Part shown: positions 20,843 through 28,675 of the stretch, piece after piece | Position numbering within the stretch: the stretch's first letter is position 1 | How the letters are laid out: every line of letters begins with the position of its first letter | Origin: Hamadaea tsunoensis DSM 44101 | Lineage (GTDB): Bacteria; Actinomycetota; Actinomycetes; Mycobacteriales; Micromonosporaceae | DNA length: 50,490 nt | NCBI RefSeq assembly: GCF_000428945.1 | Contig: NZ_AUAX01000043.1 | Coordinates: 1-50,490, forward strand | Direction: 5' to 3' | The notes under the pieces: model-generated | What the model saw: the letters and a program-made list of their open reading frames with translations, nothing else | What the model was told of the DNA's origin: nothing | Database searches by the model: none | Made by a program: the position numbers and the translations under genes

Positions 20843-21106
20843 CTATGAAACGGGCGGATAGGCGGGCGCCGGCAGGGTACGCCGAACCGCGCCCGTTTGC
20901 CCCGACAGCAGGGCGGCGGGCGGCGTACCGAGGGGAGGGACGAAGCGGAGATCGTGGTTCCGGACGGCCGTGGAGTGGGACACCGGGACGGACGAGGCGT
21001 GACGGACGGGACGGACGGTGCGGGCCGGCGCCGTGGGCGCGGTGCCGGCCACGGAACCGCACGACCCGGGACTCGCCGCGCGGCGCGGCAGCCGGTTGTT
21101 CGTCAT
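20843..21106 (-). CDS. Small unknown protein under a CelR/CebR-type operator
   Basis: The 87-residue product is unrecognised. Evidence that it is a real gene: AAGGAG lies five bases before the ATG at 21106, third positions are about 90% G/C with the codon style of the neighbours, a perfect hairpin follows the stop, and a perfect CelR/CebR box lies 22 bp before the start. The sequence is Arg/Pro/Ser/Ala-rich, has no membrane segment or signal peptide, and contains a single Cys near residue 16. It could be a small regulator, an adaptor or a leader peptide. It is divergent from the first LuxR-type gene. Confidence 0.6.
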   Translation of the reverse strand: MTNNRLPRRAASPGSCGSVAGTAPTAPARTVRPVRHASSVPVSHSTAVRNHDLRFVPPLGTPPAALLSGQTGAVRRTLPAPAYPPVS

Positions 21107-21127: not shown

Positions 21128-21141
21128 TGGGAGCGCTCCCA
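21128..21141. promoter_or_regulatory. Perfect CelR/CebR operator
   Basis: TGGGAGCGCTCCCA is a full 14-bp palindrome identical to the operator bound by the LacI-family regulators CelR (Thermobifida fusca) and CebR (Streptomyces), which release DNA on cellobiose/cello-oligosaccharides. It lies 22 bp upstream of the small gene on the minus strand and 205 bp upstream of the LuxR-type gene on the plus strand. Confidence 0.85.
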
Positions 21142-21346
21142 ACTGGATGTGAAGAAGCGTATTTCCGGCGGTCACCGGCCGGAAACAGTTCCGGCGGTTG
21201 TGGCACCTTTGTCCCGCGTACCCCGGGACACCGTCGGCGTACGGTCCTGCCGGAGCAGGACTTACGTTTCCACGGCCGGCCCGCTCGCCCCTCGCCGCCG
21301 TCAGGACTCGTTACAGCGGGATGTCCGCGCCGTATCCTTGCTGACC

Positions 21347-21985
21347 ATGACGATCGATCGGCCCCATCCCGACGAGCACATCACCCTGCTCGTGGCCGAC
21401 GACAACAGCGTCGTCCGCGCGGTCGTCCGCGAGATGATCCCGGCCGGCAGCGGGATCGAGGTCGTCGGCGAGGCGGCCAACGGCGTCGAGGCCCTGCGCC
21501 TGGCGGTCGCCCTGCGGCCCACCGTCACCCTGCTCGACCACCGGATGCCGTTGCGCGACGGGCTGTCCGTCGTGGCGTCCATCGGCGCGATCAGCCGGGT
21601 GCTCATGCTGACGCGTACCGCGGACGACGCCGTCGTGGTCGACGCCATTCGGGCCGGCGCGCTCGGCTACCTCATCCACGGCCAGTTCGTCCCCGCCGAG
21701 TTGCTGCTCGCCGTACGGTCGGTCGCCGCCGGCGAGGCGTACCTGTCGCCGACCGCGGCCCGCGCCCTGGTCACCAGCGTGCGCGCGGCCCCGCAGAGCC
21801 GCGCCGGGCTGTCGCGCCGCGAGACCGAGGTCATGAACCTCATCGCCGCCGGCCTCACCAACGCCGAGATCGCCGGGTCGCTCGTACTCTCGCTCAAGAC
21901 CGTGGAAAACCATGTCAACCACATCTTCGGCAAGCTCGGCGCCGGTGGGCGTACCGAGGCGATCGCGCTCTGGCGCCGCCCCTGA
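21347..21985 (+). CDS. NarL/LuxR-type response regulator
   Basis: The 212-residue protein has a receiver domain with the acidic pair at Asp18-Asp19, phosphoacceptor Asp64 (TLLDHRMP) and Thr89, but the invariant Lys is replaced by His111 (GYLIHGQF). A LuxR helix-turn-helix follows (LSRRETEVMNLIAAGLTNAEI, then LSLKTVENHVNHIFGKL). It should accept phosphate from a HisKA_3 kinase such as the one at 22747-24390. The Lys-to-His change may alter the phosphorylation switch. The ATG at 21347 has only a weak upstream Shine-Dalgarno. Confidence 0.9.
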   Translation: MTIDRPHPDEHITLLVADDNSVVRAVVREMIPAGSGIEVVGEAANGVEALRLAVALRPTVTLLDHRMPLRDGLSVVASIGAISRVLMLTRTADDAVVVDAIRAGALGYLIHGQFVPAELLLAVRSVAAGEAYLSPTAARALVTSVRAAPQSRAGLSRRETEVMNLIAAGLTNAEIAGSLVLSLKTVENHVNHIFGKLGAGGRTEAIALWRRP

Positions 21986-22137: not shown

Positions 22138-22746
22138 ATGAACCCGCCCCGTGTCGTCCTCGTCGGAGCCGCCGACGGTGCCTTCGCCGCGATGCTGGGC
22201 GGCCACACCACCCTGCTCGGCTGCCTGCCCCTGGCGGCGGCCGTGATGCAGGGCCGGATGCCGGCCGACCTCATCCTGCTGCGCACCGACGAGGTACGCG
22301 ACGTCTCCGCGCTCGCCCGCGCGATGCCCGAACCGGCCCCGCCGATCCTCGTCCTGACCCGGACGATGGAACCGGCCGACGTGGTGCCCGCGCTGCGCGC
22401 CGGCGCGACGAGCCTGCTCGTCGAGGGACAGTTCACCCGGGCCGACCTGCTCGACGCCGTGCACGGCACGATCCACGGCCAGAGCCGGCTGTCCCCCGCC
22501 TGCCTGACGGCCGTCGTCCGCCACCTGCGCCACCCGTCGGCCCCGTCCCACCGCCGGGCGCTGCACACGCTGACCCGGCGCGAACGCGAGATCATGGAAC
22601 TCGTGGTCGCCGGCGAGAGCAACGGTTCCATCGCCGCCAAGCTGTGCGTCGCCGAGAAGACCGTCCGCAACGCGGTGAGCCGGATCTACAAGAAGCTGCG
22701 CGTACGCAACCGGGCCGAGGCGATCGTCGCCTGGCTCGCGGGCTGA
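22138..22746 (+). CDS. LuxR-type regulator with degenerate receiver
   Basis: This 202-residue protein parallels the upstream regulator in length and layout but its receiver has lost key residues: the phosphoacceptor position is Arg49 (LILLRTDEV) and the conserved Lys is Glu96 (LLVEGQF). Thr74 is kept. The LuxR DNA-binding domain is intact (LTRREREIMELVVAGESNGSI, then VAEKTVRNAVSRIYKKL). It is probably phosphorylation-independent, perhaps forming heterodimers with its neighbour or sensing a ligand. Its TGA is directly followed, with no spare base, by the kinase stop codon on the other strand. Confidence 0.88.
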   Translation: MNPPRVVLVGAADGAFAAMLGGHTTLLGCLPLAAAVMQGRMPADLILLRTDEVRDVSALARAMPEPAPPILVLTRTMEPADVVPALRAGATSLLVEGQFTRADLLDAVHGTIHGQSRLSPACLTAVVRHLRHPSAPSHRRALHTLTRREREIMELVVAGESNGSIAAKLCVAEKTVRNAVSRIYKKLRVRNRAEAIVAWLAG

Positions 22747-24390
22747 CTAACGGCAGACGGTTCCGTTGAGCGAGTAGCCCGACGGAACCGGGTTCGTCTT
22801 GGCGAAGGTCCCCTGGAACCCGATCAGGATCGAGTCACCGGGGCGCAGGGCCGGCGTACCGGTGTCCTCGGCGAGCACGTCCCGGCCGGTCTGCGTCCAG
22901 ATGGCGGCCCAGCCGCTGGTCAGCTTCTGGTCGCCGAGCGGGAAGGCGAAGGTCAGCTGCCACCCGTCGATGATCGTGGTCCCCGTGTTGACGATCGTCA
23001 CGTCGGCGACGAAGCCGCCCTCCCACTGATTGCGCTTGGTGTACTTCACGTGGCACGCCAGCGCCGCCGGATCGGCCGCCGCCGGGCTCGCGGTCTTCCC
23101 GTCGTGCCCGGACCCACTCGGTTTCGGCTGCGCGGACGCGTTCGGCCCGGTGGACGGCCCGGTGGACGGCCCGGCCGACGGCGACGAGGCGGCACCGGTC
23201 ACCCCGGACCCGGCGCCCTCGACGAAGGGCGACGGCCGCAGAACGCTCACCCCGATGACGAGCGCTCCACACAGGACGGACGCACCCGTGATCGCCAGGA
23301 ACCGCAGCCGCCGGGGAATCCCGGGCCGCCCGGCGGCCCCGTGACGGGGAACGAGCGCCACGATACGCGTATTATCAAGGGTAAATATCGAAAGAGATCC
23401 GCCGCAGAGGCGCGCGCGTTCCGTCATGCCCACGAGCCCGTGGCGGCCTGTTCGCGGCAGGGCCGCGAGGTCGGGTTCGGCGAAGCCGGTGCCGTCGTCG
23501 CGGACCTCGAGCCGCACGGCGTCGCCCTCGGCGGCGAGCCGGACCTCGGCGTGCGAGGCGCGGGAGTGCTCGGCGACGTTGCGGAGTGCCTCTCGCAGAA
23601 TCCACGAAAGTTCCGCGGCGACCCGGCCCGACACCTCGACCGGCTCGGTACGCACGATCGCCGGCAGCCCGGTCACCGCCGACCAGTCGTCGCAGATGGC
23701 GCGGACGGTGTCGGCGAGCGGCGCGGACAGCGCCGGCGAGCGCAGGTCGTCGATGATCGCGCGGGCGTCCCGGGCGGCGTCGAGGGAGCCTTCCCGCAGC
23801 GAGGCGGCCAGCCGGACGGCCCGGTCGGGCTCGCCGAGCGAGGTCGGCAGCGCGGCCGCGCCCAGGGCCAGCGCGTCCAGGGTCTTCGACAGCGAGTCGT
23901 GCATCTCGCGGGCGAGCCGCGCCCGCTCGGCGGCGGCCGCGGCCCGGCGGGACTCGCGGATCCGCTCGGCGGCGGCCCGCACCCAGCCGGAGATGAGCGC
24001 GCCGGCGACCCCGCCCAGCGGCGCGAAGACGCCGCCCGCGACGGTGACCAGCCCGGCGATCACCCCCGGCCAGCCCAGCAGCGCCCCGGCGAGCCCGGCG
24101 GACCCGAAAGCAGTGATCATCACCGGCGTCCGGCCGACCACGAAGTACGCCATCAGCACGGCCAGCACCAGATCGCCGCCGGCCAGCACCCACCGCCGCG
24201 AGGTGGTCAGGGCGGAACTCAGCGAGAGCCCGGCGAACAGCGCCGGCACCGTCCACACCAGCACCGGCCAGCGGTGCCCGGCGTCCAGCAGCACCCACGC
24301 CAGTACGGCCGCCGACCGGCCGGCCAGCGCGACCCCGGCCAGCAGCGCGCGGACCTGATGGTCCGCGCCGCCCCGCCCTGTCGGATTCAC
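22747..24390 (-). CDS. NarL-family sensor histidine kinase fused to an extracytoplasmic CBM2
   Basis: The 547-residue protein (start at the GTG preceded by GAGGGAA; a GTG at 24411 adds 7 residues) has about five N-terminal membrane helices, a HisKA_3 domain with phospho-accepting His164 (AREMHDSLSKT), and an HATPase domain (ILREALRNVAEHS, RDDGTGF, GRHGLVGMTERA). After the ATPase come a basic stretch, a membrane helix (about 363-384), a Ser/Pro/Gly/Thr linker and a family-2 carbohydrate-binding module at about 446-546 with the flanking Cys446/Cys546 pair and Trp456, 477, 494 and 498. The topology places the CBM outside. CBM2 binds cellulose or xylan. Confidence 0.88.
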   Translation of the reverse strand: MNPTGRGGADHQVRALLAGVALAGRSAAVLAWVLLDAGHRWPVLVWTVPALFAGLSLSSALTTSRRWVLAGGDLVLAVLMAYFVVGRTPVMITAFGSAGLAGALLGWPGVIAGLVTVAGGVFAPLGGVAGALISGWVRAAAERIRESRRAAAAAERARLAREMHDSLSKTLDALALGAAALPTSLGEPDRAVRLAASLREGSLDAARDARAIIDDLRSPALSAPLADTVRAICDDWSAVTGLPAIVRTEPVEVSGRVAAELSWILREALRNVAEHSRASHAEVRLAAEGDAVRLEVRDDGTGFAEPDLAALPRTGRHGLVGMTERARLCGGSLSIFTLDNTRIVALVPRHGAAGRPGIPRRLRFLAITGASVLCGALVIGVSVLRPSPFVEGAGSGVTGAASSPSAGPSTGPSTGPNASAQPKPSGSGHDGKTASPAAADPAALACHVKYTKRNQWEGGFVADVTIVNTGTTIIDGWQLTFAFPLGDQKLTSGWAAIWTQTGRDVLAEDTGTPALRPGDSILIGFQGTFAKTNPVPSGYSLNGTVCR

Positions 24391-24428
24391 GATCGTTTCC
24401 CTCGCTGCCACGCCTGCGCATCGCAGTA

Positions 24429-24442
24429 TGGCCGCGCTCCCA
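24429..24442. promoter_or_regulatory. Degenerate CelR/CebR-like box before the kinase-CBM2 gene
   Basis: TGGCCGCGCTCCCA matches 12 of 14 bases of the CelR/CebR operator, with one half-site intact. It lies about 40 bp upstream of the kinase start. In GC-rich DNA a 12/14 match may arise by chance, so its value depends on the perfect box 3.3 kb away. Confidence 0.45.
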
Positions 24443-24497: not shown

Positions 24498-24542
24498 GTA
24501 GATCGGATCCAGGTAGAGCGCGTCTACGTAGATCCGATCTAC
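24498..24542. terminator. Nested palindrome after the conservon
   Basis: GTAGATCGGATC (24498-24509) pairs with GATCCGATCTAC (24531-24542); between them GTAGA and TCTAC form a second stem. It follows the GTPase stop by about 30 bp and precedes the kinase-CBM2 gene, so it likely ends the conservon transcript. Confidence 0.6.
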
Positions 24543-24574: not shown

Positions 24575-25183
24575 TCAGCGGGACGGGACGACCTCGGGAT
24601 TCTCCTCGCGCAGCGCGTTGATCGCGTGCTCGACCGACTTGATCAGCACCTGCTTGGTCGACTCCCGGTGCCGGGCGTCGCACTCCAGGATCGGTACGCG
24701 GGCCGGGATCGCCAGCGCCTCGGCGACCTCCTCCAGGGCGTACCGCTGGGTGCCGTCGAAGATGTTCAGCGCCACGATGTAGGGCAGGCCCCGGCTCTCG
24801 AAGAAGTCGATGGGCGCGAACGAGTCCGACAGCCGGCGCGTGTCGACGAGGACCACGGCGACCAGCGCGCCGCGCATCAGCTCGTCCCACATGAACCAGA
24901 ACCGCGTCTGGCCCGGCGTACCGAAGAGGTAGAGGATGAGGTCCTTCGCCATCGTGATCCGGCCGAAGTCCATCGCCACCGTGGTGGATTCCTTGCCGGG
25001 CACCTTCGAGGCGTCGTCGATGCCGACACCGGCGGCGGTCATCACCGCCTCCGTCGTCAGCGGGGCGATCTCGGACACCGTGCCCACGAGGGTGGTCTTC
25101 CCGACGCCGAAACCGCCGGCGATGACGATTTTCGCGGAGGTGATCTGCGAGGACCCCGTGGTGTCAAAGCCTGCGTAGTCCAC
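24575..25183 (-). CDS. cvnD: Conservon GTPase (CvnD-type, Ras/MglA-like)
   Basis: At 202 residues this small GTPase has a P-loop GGFGVGKTTL near residue 24, a switch II FGTPGQTRFWFMW near 88, and ALNIFDG near 138 in place of the usual NKxD. These changes are typical of the conservon GTPases of actinobacteria. The start overlaps the DUF742 gene by 20 bp. It is expected to cycle at the membrane with the Roadblock protein and the kinase-like sensor, by analogy with Streptomyces Cvn9. Confidence 0.93.
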   Translation of the reverse strand: MDYAGFDTTGSSQITSAKIVIAGGFGVGKTTLVGTVSEIAPLTTEAVMTAAGVGIDDASKVPGKESTTVAMDFGRITMAKDLILYLFGTPGQTRFWFMWDELMRGALVAVVLVDTRRLSDSFAPIDFFESRGLPYIVALNIFDGTQRYALEEVAEALAIPARVPILECDARHRESTKQVLIKSVEHAINALREENPEVVPSR

Positions 25184-25541
25184 TCAAGACCCTTTCCAAG
25201 ACGTGCAAACGATCGTTGACGCTCTGTTCCCGGTTCAGCTCGTGCAGGTCGAGGAGCCCCTCGGCGACCATGTCGGCGATGAGGACGCGTACCACACCGA
25301 AGGGCATCCTCATCAGCGCCGACACCTCGGCGAGGGAACGCGGCACGCCGTCGCAGAGGGTGATGATGCGGTTCTTGTGCTGTCCGGCGAAGCGTCCCTC
25401 CTGCCGGCCCGTCGCGTTCGTGACCAGCACGGCCTCGATCGCGATGTCCCGGCGCGGCTCGGTACGCCCGCGCGTGACCGCGTACGGGCGCACCAGCGCG
25501 CCCCGCGGATCTCGGCGCAGACTCTCGTCGTCAGGCCCCAC
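25164..25541 (-). CDS. cvnC: DUF742 conservon protein (CvnC-type)
   Basis: The 125-residue DUF742 protein has the family's LVRPYAVTRGRTEP motif near residue 16, a basic middle (GQHKNRIITLCDG) and the PRSLAEVSALMRMPFGVVRVL winged-helix-like segment, ending in LHVLERVLSGLRRL. It is the third member of the conserved kinase-Roadblock-DUF742-GTPase set. The gap to cvnB is 33 bp. Confidence 0.93.
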   Translation of the reverse strand: MGPDDESLRRDPRGALVRPYAVTRGRTEPRRDIAIEAVLVTNATGRQEGRFAGQHKNRIITLCDGVPRSLAEVSALMRMPFGVVRVLIADMVAEGLLDLHELNREQSVNDRLHVLERVLSGLRRL

Positions 25542-25574
25542 AGCGCACCATCCCCCACCTTCCCCCTCGATCGC

Positions 25575-25982
25575 CTACGGCTGACCGGCGAGTTCGCGGG
25601 TGCTGGGCGTCAGCGCCCCACCCACCCGGTCGACCAGCAGGGCCATCTCGTAGCCGACCTGGCCGACGTCGCAGCTGCGCGCGGCGAGCACGGCGAGGGC
25701 GGAACCGTCGCTCACCGCCATGAGGAAGAGGTACCCGCCGTCCATCTCGATGATCGTCTGGCGGATCCCGCCGCCGTCGAAGCAGCGCGAGGCGCCGTCG
25801 GTCAGGCTCACCACGCCTGCCGTGATCGCCGCCAGCTGGTCCGCGCGGTCGCCGGGCAGATCCTGGGTCGATGCGAGCAACAGGCCGTCCGCCGACACCG
25901 CCACCACATGTGCCACACCGGGCACCTGGTACGCGAAGTTGTTCAGCAGCCAGCTGGTATGGGCCATCTTCGGGCCGGTCAT
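25575..25982 (-). CDS. cvnB: Roadblock/LC7 conservon protein (CvnB-type)
   Basis: The 135-residue protein begins MTGPKMAHTSWLLNNFAYQV and shows the Roadblock pattern of conservons (VAHVVAVSADGLLLASTQDL, TAGVVSLTDGASRCFDGG, GYLFLMAVSDGSALAVLAA). It is expected to be the GTPase regulator for CvnD. Its ATG overlaps the cvnA stop by four bases. Confidence 0.93.
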   Translation of the reverse strand: MTGPKMAHTSWLLNNFAYQVPGVAHVVAVSADGLLLASTQDLPGDRADQLAAITAGVVSLTDGASRCFDGGGIRQTIIEMDGGYLFLMAVSDGSALAVLAARSCDVGQVGYEMALLVDRVGGALTPSTRELAGQP

Positions 25983-28675
25983 CGGTTTTCCTCATTCTGT
26001 ACTGGTACCTGCGGGCCGCTGAGGTCGTCGCGGCCCCGCTGAACACCACGGGTGTACGCCGAGAGCAGGCCCTGTACCTGCTCGGGAGTGCGCTTGACCC
26101 GGGCGACCGTCGGCTCGCCGACGCTGCCGGGAACGAGGTTCTCCTGGGGCCGGCGGATGGGCAGGCCCGACCGGGTCGTCGAACCGGTCACCGGGCTCGA
26201 CGCGGCGGCGGCGGCCTGCCAGCCGAGGTCGGCGGAGGTCTGCCACTCAGGATTCGCCTCGGCGGCCTGCCGCTGGCGCGGTATGCCCGCGTCCTCGGCC
26301 GCCCCGTCGAGCCGGGCGGCGGTCGCGGGCTGTCCCGGTGTGACCGGCTGCGCCCCGGCGATCGGCCAGTCGCTGCGTACCGTGTTCTGCTGCACGGCGG
26401 CACGTCCCTTCGCGGGGATCGCCGGCGCCTCGATCGTGCGTCGCGTACCCCAGGAATCGGACTCGGATTCGGGCTCGGCGGACGAGCCGAACCACGAAGC
26501 CTGCATCTGCCGGAAGATCGGCAGTTCGGTGGTGTCGTCGACGGCGGGCGCGGCCAGCGGCGCCGAGACCGGCACCGTGGAGACCGGGACCGCGGAGACC
26601 GGGACGGGCACCTCGTACTCGCCCGCGACGTGCTGGCCCGGGACCCGCGTCGGCAGGAGGGGCCGGCCCGCCGGTACGCCCGCGCCGGACGGCAGTGCCT
26701 GGTGGCGGCCCTCCTCCAGGGCGAGGTGACGGCGTGGCCGCAGGCTCACGTCGGCCCGCGGCAGCACGAGGATGTTGCGCGGCAGCACGAGGCCGGCGGT
26801 GATCCCGCTGTCGGTGTTGCGCCGCAGTTCGGCCTTGATGCCGTAGCGGTCGGCGAGCCGGCCGACGACGCCGAGGCCCATCATCCGGAACGCGGAGACG
26901 TCGACCTGGCCGGGCGCGGCGAGCCGCTCGTTGACGGCGTGGATCTGGTCGTCGGTCATGCCCAGGCCGCGGTCCTCGACCTGGATGAGCACGTAGTCGC
27001 CGATGCGCCGGGCGTCGGCGACGACGACCGTCCCCGGCGGCGAGAAGCGGGTGCCGTTGTCCATCAGCTCGGCGACCATGCGGACGACGTCGTTGACGGC
27101 GTGCGCCGCGATGCCCGTGTCGCCGTCGACCGTGCTGAACTCGACGCGGTCGTAGAGCTCCACCTCGGACTGGGCGGCGCGCAGGACGTCCTCCAGGCCG
27201 GCGTCCTCACGGCGGCCGGGGCTCGCGTCGGCGCCGGCCAGTACGAGCAGGTTCTCGTCGTTGCGGCGCATCCGGGTGGCCAGGTGGTCCAGCCGGAACA
27301 TGCGGGCCAGGCGGGCCGGGTCCTGCTCGTGCTGCTCGATCGCGTCCAGCTCGGCGATCATCCGGTCGACCAGGGTCTGGGACCGGCGGGCGAGGCTGAG
27401 GAACATCGCCGAGACGGTGGCGCGCAGCACGGCCTGCTCGGCCGCGATGCGTACCGCCTCGCGGTGGACGATGTTGAAGGCCGCGGCCACCTGGCCGATC
27501 TCGTCCCGCCCCGGTACGCGGATCTCGTCGTGCACTTCGTTGGCGAACGTCTCGGCGGTGCGCTCGTCGAGGCCCCGGATGTCGCGCAGCCGCTCGACCA
27601 TCGCCGGGAGGCTGTGGTCGGCGACGGCGAGCGCGCCGCCCCGCAGGCGTTCGAGCGAGCGGACCATCATCCGGGCGACCAGCGCGGCGATCAGGATCGC
27701 GGCGAGCAGCAGGGCCGGGTGCAGGATCCACTCCGCGATCACCTGCCGCGTGACGGCGTCCGTACGCGTCTGGATCTCGGAGTTGAGCTGGCTCTCCAGC
27801 CGCAGCTGGGCGAACCGCATGAGGTCGACGACGGCGCCCAGCGACCGGGACGCGTCCTCCGCACCGATCCAGGCACGGGTGCCGGTCGACCGGCTCACCT
27901 GGAAGGCCGCCCAGTCGGCGAGGGTGACCGCGTCGCCGGAGACGAAGTTGCGCACCACCGTCCACTGCTGTTCGCTGGCGTCCTTCAGGAACTCCTTCAG
28001 CGACTCCTGCGCGGTGGTCATGCTCGCGACGAAGCTCGCGTGCTGCTCGTCGCTGACCGCGCCCCCGCTGAGCAGCACCACGTACGCCGACGCCTGCTGG
28101 TCGGCCGCGGCCGACTGGGTCATCGCGAACGCGGCCACGGCGCGAGGCTGGTCGACCACGTCAACGATCTTGCCGACGAACTCGGCCGCATCAGAGACAT
28201 AGGTGTTCAGGTCAGCCAGGATGACGCCGTATCGCAGGACCATCTGCGCGGCCGACGTGTCCTTGCGCGACTGCGCCTCTTCGCGGATCGAGCCGAGGCC
28301 GTCGAGATGGGTGCCGATCCGGTCCAGGCCCGGGCCGAGCTCGTCGGGCGGCGTACCCAGCGCCTCGCGCGCCTGCCGGAACGCGGTGATGCGCTCGTCG
28401 GTGTCGGCGAGCCGGGCACGCAGCTGCGCACCGTCGTCGCTCGGGTGCGCCAGGTACTCCGCCACCGCCATGCGCTCGTGGTGCAGCGCGTAAGCGAGTG
28501 ACGTCACCTGGGCGGAGAGCGTCGTGAGGTGGTTGGACAGACGAGCGGCGGCGGCCTGCTGCCCGGCCTGGAAGAGGTTGACTCCGCCCAGAACGAGAGT
28601 ACTGATCACAGGGATCAGGAGGACCACGGCCAACTTCGTCCGAATCCGAGCGTCCCGCAGGTTCAAACGTGGCAC
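25979..28675 (-). CDS. cvnA: Nitrate-type (NIT) sensor kinase of the conservon (CvnA-type)
   Basis: The 898-residue protein starts at GTG 28675 behind GGTGGA; a much longer open frame upstream crosses the divergent gene and is rejected. There is a membrane helix (about 15-35), an extracytoplasmic NIT-type helical domain (about 50-310, ALHHERMAVAEYLAHP), a second helix, a HAMP-like region, a kinase dimer helix, and an HATPase domain with N-box MVAELMDNGTRFSPP and VEDRGLGM. The last ~250 residues are Pro/Ala/Glu-rich and likely disordered. A canonical phosphorylated His motif is not evident, as in other conservon kinases. Confidence 0.9.
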   Translation of the reverse strand: MPRLNLRDARIRTKLAVVLLIPVISTLVLGGVNLFQAGQQAAAARLSNHLTTLSAQVTSLAYALHHERMAVAEYLAHPSDDGAQLRARLADTDERITAFRQAREALGTPPDELGPGLDRIGTHLDGLGSIREEAQSRKDTSAAQMVLRYGVILADLNTYVSDAAEFVGKIVDVVDQPRAVAAFAMTQSAAADQQASAYVVLLSGGAVSDEQHASFVASMTTAQESLKEFLKDASEQQWTVVRNFVSGDAVTLADWAAFQVSRSTGTRAWIGAEDASRSLGAVVDLMRFAQLRLESQLNSEIQTRTDAVTRQVIAEWILHPALLLAAILIAALVARMMVRSLERLRGGALAVADHSLPAMVERLRDIRGLDERTAETFANEVHDEIRVPGRDEIGQVAAAFNIVHREAVRIAAEQAVLRATVSAMFLSLARRSQTLVDRMIAELDAIEQHEQDPARLARMFRLDHLATRMRRNDENLLVLAGADASPGRREDAGLEDVLRAAQSEVELYDRVEFSTVDGDTGIAAHAVNDVVRMVAELMDNGTRFSPPGTVVVADARRIGDYVLIQVEDRGLGMTDDQIHAVNERLAAPGQVDVSAFRMMGLGVVGRLADRYGIKAELRRNTDSGITAGLVLPRNILVLPRADVSLRPRRHLALEEGRHQALPSGAGVPAGRPLLPTRVPGQHVAGEYEVPVPVSAVPVSTVPVSAPLAAPAVDDTTELPIFRQMQASWFGSSAEPESESDSWGTRRTIEAPAIPAKGRAAVQQNTVRSDWPIAGAQPVTPGQPATAARLDGAAEDAGIPRQRQAAEANPEWQTSADLGWQAAAAASSPVTGSTTRSGLPIRRPQENLVPGSVGEPTVARVKRTPEQVQGLLSAYTRGVQRGRDDLSGPQVPVQNEENR

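Follow-up and report, generated by a model that had tools for sequence, protein, structure and literature searches.

The detection of cellulose by aerobic actinobacteria is explained mainly via soluble cello-oligosaccharides and the repressor CebR; insoluble cellulose cannot enter the cell. The corresponding CebR/CelR regulon of Streptomyces and other actinobacteria is characterized by a 14-bp operator upstream of cellulases (PMC5332605, PMC4898821, PMC3377646), the consensus of which is printed as TGGGAGCGCTCCCA in the first two of these papers. In Clostridium thermocellum, RsgI anti-sigma factors possess a C-terminal outer sensor, in some members with a carbohydrate-binding module (CBM), which binds plant polysaccharide and controls the cellulosome genes (PMC12203970). 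Our analysis concerns a stretch of 50,490 nucleotides from the soil bacterium Hamadaea tsunoensis DSM 44101 (contig NZ_AUAX01000043.1; hereafter the window) with a gene that joins a histidine kinase to a C-terminal family-2 CBM (CBM2), together with two response regulator genes, RR1 and RR2. We consider it reasonably probable that these genes form a two-component system by which some of the Micromonosporaceae sense cellulose, which acts in the CebR network and whose kinase has an inverted layout. It looks like an undescribed route by which bacteria sense solid cellulose.

Judged by analogy, the closest system in its way of working is RsgI: an output domain in the cytoplasm is followed by a helix in the membrane, a stretch that spans the wall and a sensor outside at the C-terminus, an arrangement predicted for the window protein as well, which is a likeness of order and not of kinship. 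In RsgI a sigma-I factor is held, and the mode of action is proteolysis (PMC12203970), whereas the window protein is a histidine kinase with NarL-type regulators, has further N-terminal helices and comes from Actinomycetota. Because no RsgI-type N-terminal anti-sigma domain is recognised by Pfam in the window protein, which has kinase domains instead, it is not a member of the RsgI family. By its domains it belongs to the HisKA_3 kinases; with the HisKA_3/NarL-family members MctS, NarX, MadS, MacS, UhpB and LiaS it shares the dimerisation/phosphoacceptor (DHp) domain, the ATPase domain, an N-terminal membrane part and partners of the NarL/LuxR type, but it differs from them in the extra C-terminal membrane helix and the CBM. 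We take DesK to be a further kinase of this family that is comparable. Among the matches listed, the protein scores far below the curated cut-offs of all ten NCBIfam models, e.g. 50.4 bits for the MacS model NF047322 with its cut-off of 300.

Two-component control of plant-wall enzymes has been described for XydS/XydR of Clostridium cellulolyticum, which adjoins and controls the respective genes; this system is called prototypical, its regulator is of the AraC type, and the accessible text mentions no CBM on the kinase (PMC3572039). The window system differs from the CebR/CelR regulon in that the operator has an intergenic region in common with two-component regulators. PMC3377646 already reports signalling proteins in the vicinity of CelR sites, and two of these weakly resemble the ATPase domains of histidine kinases, so that the theme is partly foreshadowed; a CBM-bearing kinase is not mentioned in the accessible portions of PMC5332605, PMC4898821 or PMC3377646. 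The original prediction, made from the DNA sequence of the window, held that no standard family has such a domain order. This is too broad with respect to the RsgI anti-sigma factors, which have it, and it stands for histidine kinases: none that bears a CBM or senses from its C-terminus was found in the accessible portions of the open-licence literature. What appears to be new is the kinase with a C-terminal CBM; the RsgI-like order and signalling near CelR sites were already known.

Kinase, helix, linker and CBM2 are indeed encoded in one continuous frame, a single open reading frame (ORF) on the minus strand (Table 1). The upstream end at 24442 that was first assigned to it is out of frame with the stop codon. 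From the GTG at 24390, the gene caller's choice, the product has 547 aa, and the Cys pair first numbered 446/546 is correct when counted from there; from the start at 24411, used throughout this text, the same residues are 453 and 553. Pfam recognises HisKA_3 (PF07730; E 8.7e-11, 42.7 bits, cut-off 24), HATPase_c (PF02518; E 1e-8, 36 bits, cut-off 26.4) and CBM_2 (E 3.8e-22, 79 bits, cut-off 24, model positions 1-101 of 101). The motifs REMHDSLSK, REALRN, DDGTGF and GRHGLVGM can be read in the kinase sequence. In alignment A1, which consists of the window protein and five relatives (loci L021-L025), the phosphoacceptor H171, the residues N278, D305, G307, G309 and G325 of HATPase_c (N and G boxes) and the CBM2 residues C453 and C553 are invariant. 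No N-terminal sensor domain is recognised by Pfam in the window kinase, and the CBM2 is the only outer domain found.

The five relatives are the whole fusions among 13 loci from a scan of the GTDB collection, namely those of Dactylosporangium siamense (L021), Catellatospora sp. KI3 (L022), D. aurantiacum (L023), Catelliglobosispora koreensis (L024) and Rhizocola hellebori (L025). Their identity to the window protein is 42-47%, and HisKA_3, HATPase_c and CBM_2 are found in all six proteins of A1. A domain search across the Micromonosporaceae, as suggested originally, finds the fusion kept: in a sample of 150 genomes from 44 genera, drawn evenly from the larger group, ten genomes match at E<=1e-40, nine of them with matches that extend into the CBM and one (G027) with the kinase only. 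These nine CBM-bearing homologues are distributed over five genera (the window's genome; G019, G132 and G148 of one genus; G070, G105 and G138 of another; G020, Catelliglobosispora; G068, Rhizocola), and eight of them have a complete kinase; in G138 the homologue occurs only as a form that lacks a recognised DHp domain (L046). Four further CBM-bearing proteins of the family are each encoded by one ORF, two of them complete (L047, L048) and two without DHp (L046, 8903-10261; L042, 5088-6074, a second copy in Catelliglobosispora); the latter two keep the ATPase domain, the C-terminal helix and the CBM.

Separate kinase and CBM genes in relatives were looked for and not found. Instead, one ORF encodes the fusion in the window and in nine other CBM-bearing proteins, which rules out a frameshift artefact and agrees with the initial view that the gene is not simply two genes read together. 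It might also be argued that the fusion is neutral or an error and has no function, and an AT-rich patch near the kinase end (38% GC, 23360-23399) might be cited for this. Conservation contradicts it: the fusion occurs as one ORF in five genera, at 42-47% identity and with kinase motifs and Cys pair kept. We find this explanation scarcely credible. As to the patch itself, it lies at the end of the ATPase-domain coding region; the residues here are DNTR in the window protein and GGGT in several relatives.

For the phylum, a sample of 346 genomes including the window's revealed no further fusion; one of the 345 others (G252) matched at E<=1e-38, with the kinase part only. This search scored four candidates per genome among the matches listed, compared with nine in the family search, and is less sensitive; the absence outside the family is therefore weak. 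In a tree of CBM sequences the kinase CBMs cluster, with two label changes (no value as low in 500 shuffles; one change in 32% of the bootstrap trees), and the CBM of L042 lies outside this cluster. The fusion may have a single origin, the topology being compatible with one or more.

With respect to the membrane, the original prediction placed the CBM behind the ATPase domain and outside the cell. A helix does lie between the two, and its flanking charges support this placement. It is not the second membrane helix, as had been assumed; hydropathy gives four membrane-like segments ahead of the kinase. In the window protein the net charge is +4 in the 15 residues before the C-terminal helix and 0 in the 15 after it, and all ten CBM proteins have a C-terminal membrane segment by hydropathy, with a net charge of +1 to +4 before and -1 to +1 after, followed by linker and CBM. 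Because the charge before the helix is positive, the positive-inside rule predicts a CBM that lies outside the cell. No C-terminal membrane segment was seen by hydropathy in the three related CBM-less kinases (L043, L005, L006). An AlphaFold2 model from six sequences (mean predicted local distance difference test score, pLDDT, 65; predicted template modelling score 0.36), in which the relative placement of domains is not reliable, has a helix at 367-390, pLDDT below 50 over 389-445, and a beta-rich, better predicted CBM.

The N-terminal membrane segments vary in number: four in the window protein, two in Rhizocola (L025) and a single short one in Catelliglobosispora (L024). Besides the CBM, L024 has no other recognised outer domain, which together with its one short segment points to the CBM as the sensor part. 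Alternatively, the CBM could be an anchor that ties the kinase or hypha to plant fibres, and the N-terminal helices would read the signal, such as the membrane state in a DesK-like manner. Six of the eight complete kinases have three to five membrane segments at the N-terminus, which would fit this role; so would the ordinary nature of the named kinase models that score best (MctS, NarX, MadS, MacS). However, it is the N-terminal region that varies, down to the short segment of L024, while C-terminal helix and CBM are constant, and the linkage to cellulases and CebR boxes likewise argues against an anchor; we regard it as unlikely. Another possibility is a release as in RsgI, in which substrate binding would lead to cleavage at the C-terminal helix and would free or remove the kinase, with no allostery involved. 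The domain order is that of RsgI, and the two natural proteins without DHp, which retain ATPase domain, helix and CBM, indicate that this module may serve without phosphotransfer. Yet Pfam recognises no domain in residues 356-452, which include the region between C-terminal helix and CBM and in which it gives no match to a periplasmic autocleavage domain of the RsgI type, and the linker looks disordered. To cleavage of this kind we give little credence.

The reading of the CBM as a sensor gains from the genes around it. Neither the two convergent regulators nor the CebR operator, the inverted repeat and the cellulases next to the kinase gene in most relatives appear in the original prediction. 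RR2 is convergent with the kinase gene, and the stop codons of the two abut. An RR1-type gene is present at all eight loci with a complete kinase, always convergent to it, and RR2 at six, the loci of Catelliglobosispora and Rhizocola having one regulator each. In the four RR1-type proteins scanned, Pfam recognises both a receiver and a DNA-binding domain of the LuxR type. By contrast, a scan of six RR2 proteins with E values up to 10 (HMMER's filters on) gave no Response_reg match, and only their DNA-binding domain was recognised. Four RR2 proteins were aligned and have Arg or His in place of the acceptor Asp; the N-terminal columns of this alignment are out of register, and the acidic pair was judged by eye. 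From anatomy and context, RR1 is likely the phosphoacceptor of the kinase, and RR2 is likely its pseudo-receiver partner.

Genes for enzymes of the glycoside hydrolase (GH) families GH5, GH6 and GH9 are divergent from RR1 at six of the eight loci with a complete kinase, and a seventh has a decayed GH5. Their architectures differ between lineages: a GH6-GH5 protein of 1418 aa with FN3 and CBM3 in G019, G132 and G148, GH5-FN3-CBM3 in D. siamense, and GH5-FN3-CBM2 followed by GH9-FN3-CBM2 in Catelliglobosispora and Rhizocola. The decayed GH5 pieces lie upstream of RR1 in D. aurantiacum (L049, 7457-7841); the genes beyond them resemble, by eye, a DNA-ligase set. A CebR box with at most one mismatch occurs upstream of RR1 at all eight loci, compared with 0 or 1 time per 1000 dinucleotide shuffles of these regions. 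No such box, up to two mismatches, is found in the fetched stretches of L042, L046 and the paralogue L043. The window genome (9.48 Mb) contains four exact boxes including that at 21128-21141 (none in the reversed control), and the other three precede GH9-CBM3-FN3-CBM2, CBM2-GH48 and CBM4-GH9-CBM2 enzymes; with one mismatch allowed, there are 39 boxes and one in the control.

Between the box and RR1 of the window lies an exact inverted repeat of the form TGTCCCG-N7-CGGGACA, a candidate operator of the response regulators. The repeat (N7/8) recurs with at most one mismatch at seven of the eight loci (shuffles 0-2 per 1000) and with at most two at all eight (shuffles 3-25 per 1000); four loci (L045, L047, L048, L051) carry the repeat twice, the second copy having no more than two mismatches. 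CebR-like box and repeat are 76-82 bp apart at all eight loci, if boxes with two, two and three mismatches are counted in the three loci of the Catellatospora group. The idea that the box serves the neighbouring cellulase only is weakened because this spacing is kept where the cellulase is missing or decayed; in the Catellatospora group, however, the 76-bp box is degenerate, and the exact one is found near the cellulase, at a distance of 201-209 bp from the repeat.

According to our model, the N-terminal helices would anchor the kinase, with the DHp and ATPase domains in the cytoplasm, and a second anchor right behind the ATPase domain would cross the membrane, from where the disordered Ser/Pro linker would span the wall and present the CBM2 outside. 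In histidine kinases the ATPase domain must move to reach the His. Attachment of the CBM to solid cellulose could alter the position or freedom of this domain, or cluster the dimers, and thereby alter autophosphorylation. The phosphate would pass to RR1 with its intact receiver; RR2, of the same DNA-binding type and with a degenerate receiver, would probably be a partner or a non-phosphorylated regulator. Both may act at the inverted repeat 5' of RR1, and hence on the divergent cellulase at those loci that retain one. CebR, a repressor freed by soluble cello-oligosaccharides, would work on the same intergenic region, so that solid and soluble signals could be read together. Tentatively, and with a little more doubt than confidence, we go further and propose a new class of kinase that is driven from its C-terminal end: the CBM would set the freedom of the catalytic domain via the helix behind the ATPase domain, in place of a signal passed to the DHp helices from the N-terminal side, and an intact and a receiver-less regulator would be wired into the CebR cellulase network. 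Such control from the catalytic end does not appear in the accessible portions of a 2021 review on kinase sensing (PMC8534201). If this model is true, the CBM-displaying kinase is a direct contact sensor for cellulose, and the cell compares touching cellulose with tasting cellobiose. Histidine kinases would then be drivable from the catalytic-domain end, which would also provide a part for building polymer-responsive sensors.

From similarity and context, the ligand is presumably cellulose. The best sequence match of the CBM in the PDB is 1exg (named exo-1,4-beta-D-glycanase; E 3.5e-18); 2rtt, named ChiC, is also among the matches. Surface Trp residues had been noted in the CBM from the start. 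Two Trp, W463 and W501 in the window, correspond to residues which we take to be flat-face Trp of the CBM2a reference 1exg, and both positions are Trp in all ten kinase CBMs. The third Trp that we assign to this face is replaced in the window and is W in none of the ten: one has Tyr, the others T, V, V, N, N, R, R, D and S. At this position, the six CBM2s of enzymes used for comparison show one W, three Y and two H. With the third Trp replaced, the module may bind cellulose weakly or in a different way. Chitin and xylan are also bound by members of CBM2, and the module could read one of these polymers or the cell's own wall. The replaced Trp and the match to ChiC would suit this idea; against it stand the glycanase 1exg as best match, the GH5, GH6 and GH9 neighbours and the CebR type of the boxes, and we hold it to be decidedly unlikely.

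Besides the replaced Trp, several observations weigh against a cellulose-sensing system of this kind. No intact cellulase adjoins the response regulators in the window or in D. aurantiacum. L042 and L046 have no recognised DHp/phosphoacceptor domain, and no homologue of RR1 or RR2 was found in their stretches of 10 and 19 kb. Within the window's genus, the three other genomes gave no match at E<=1e-25. Counts of eight out of eight are not eight independent trials, since the loci share descent. A two-mismatch CebR-like site 5' of the kinase (24429) is within chance expectation (2 in the window, mean 0.5; 11 of 100 shuffles). CebR itself is presumed to be present; two genes of the LacI type are located near one of the boxed cellulases (L057). 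A wide regulon of the response regulators via the inverted repeat is not supported because genome-wide counts (N7, at most one mismatch) are similar with and without the system, i.e. 5-7 in six genomes that have it and 1-6 in four that do not (reversed control 0-5). Out of six exact copies in these ten genomes, two are away from RR1 promoters (G070, and G001 without the system). As the other four are located at RR1 promoters (G000, G020, and G068 twice), the repeat is most likely an autoregulatory site. Finally, we infer the mechanism itself from anatomy and context.

Table 1. Positions of the kinase, its parts, the response regulators and the regulatory DNA (window coordinates unless a locus is named).
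Feature	Position	Strand	Basis or remark
Histidine kinase with C-terminal CBM2	22747..24411	-	554 aa, GTG start; alternative start 24390
N-terminal membrane region, residues 23-135, four membrane-like segments	24007..24345	-	hydropathy
HisKA_3 dimerisation/phosphoacceptor domain, residues 162-227, motif REMHDSLSK	23731..23928	-	Pfam
HATPase_c catalytic domain, residues 267-355	23347..23613	-	Pfam
C-terminal membrane helix, residues 372-390	23242..23298	-	hydropathy; AlphaFold2 model
Ser/Pro/Gly/Thr linker, residues 391-452, mostly without confident structure	23056..23241	-	pLDDT
Family-2 CBM, residues 453-553, Cys453/Cys553, W463, W501	22753..23055	-	Pfam; 1exg match; alignment
RR1, NarL-type response regulator, Pfam-recognised receiver	21347..21985	+	gene call, Pfam, alignment
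RR2, NarL/LuxR-type regulator, receiver part unrecognised by Pfam, usual acceptor Asp replaced	22138..22746	+	gene call, Pfam, alignment
RR2 copies beside intact RR1	window 22138-22746; L044 6494-7177; L047 8453-9139; L048 10328-11023(-); L049 8881-9498; L050 8348-8965		
Exact CebR operator TGGGAGCGCTCCCA	21128..21141	.	219 bp before RR1, not at the kinase gene itself
Inverted repeat TGTCCCG-N7-CGGGACA, exact, candidate response regulator operator	21210..21230	.	upstream of RR1, nearer to RR1 than the CebR box
Frame of 87 codons, ribosome-site-like stretch shortly beyond the CebR box	20843..21106	-	no similarity found

The short frame at 20843-21106 might, speculatively, be the start of a lost cellulase gene. 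A tblastn search of the window with four cellulases of relatives matched the kinase gene itself only, and for this frame no similarity was found. On the other side of the kinase gene, a conservon-like gene set adjoins (24575-28627, minus strand), with a NIT/HAMP/HATPase protein and a small GTPase according to Pfam; two small genes between these two resemble, by eye, DUF742 and roadblock proteins. A further inverted repeat, GTAGATCGGATC ... GATCCGATCTAC, is located 5' of the kinase gene at 24498-24542 and is a possible operator or hairpin.

Other copies of the TGTCCCG repeat were followed up in the window genome, where four of six one-mismatch copies were inspected (those on C5 and C18 were left out): one is at a GH6-CBM2 gene, another lies between genes and has no CebR box (L095), and two are within called genes (L094, L096). 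Upstream of the GH6-CBM2 gene (L092, 2982-4587), the start of the repeat is 61 bp away from a CebR box with one mismatch, which makes this gene a possible target in trans. In D. siamense, an exact copy lies just 5' of a 684-aa gene (L097, 5019-7778), which is followed by a gene that resembles, by eye, a response regulator; this copy could be due to chance or belong to a second system that shares the site.

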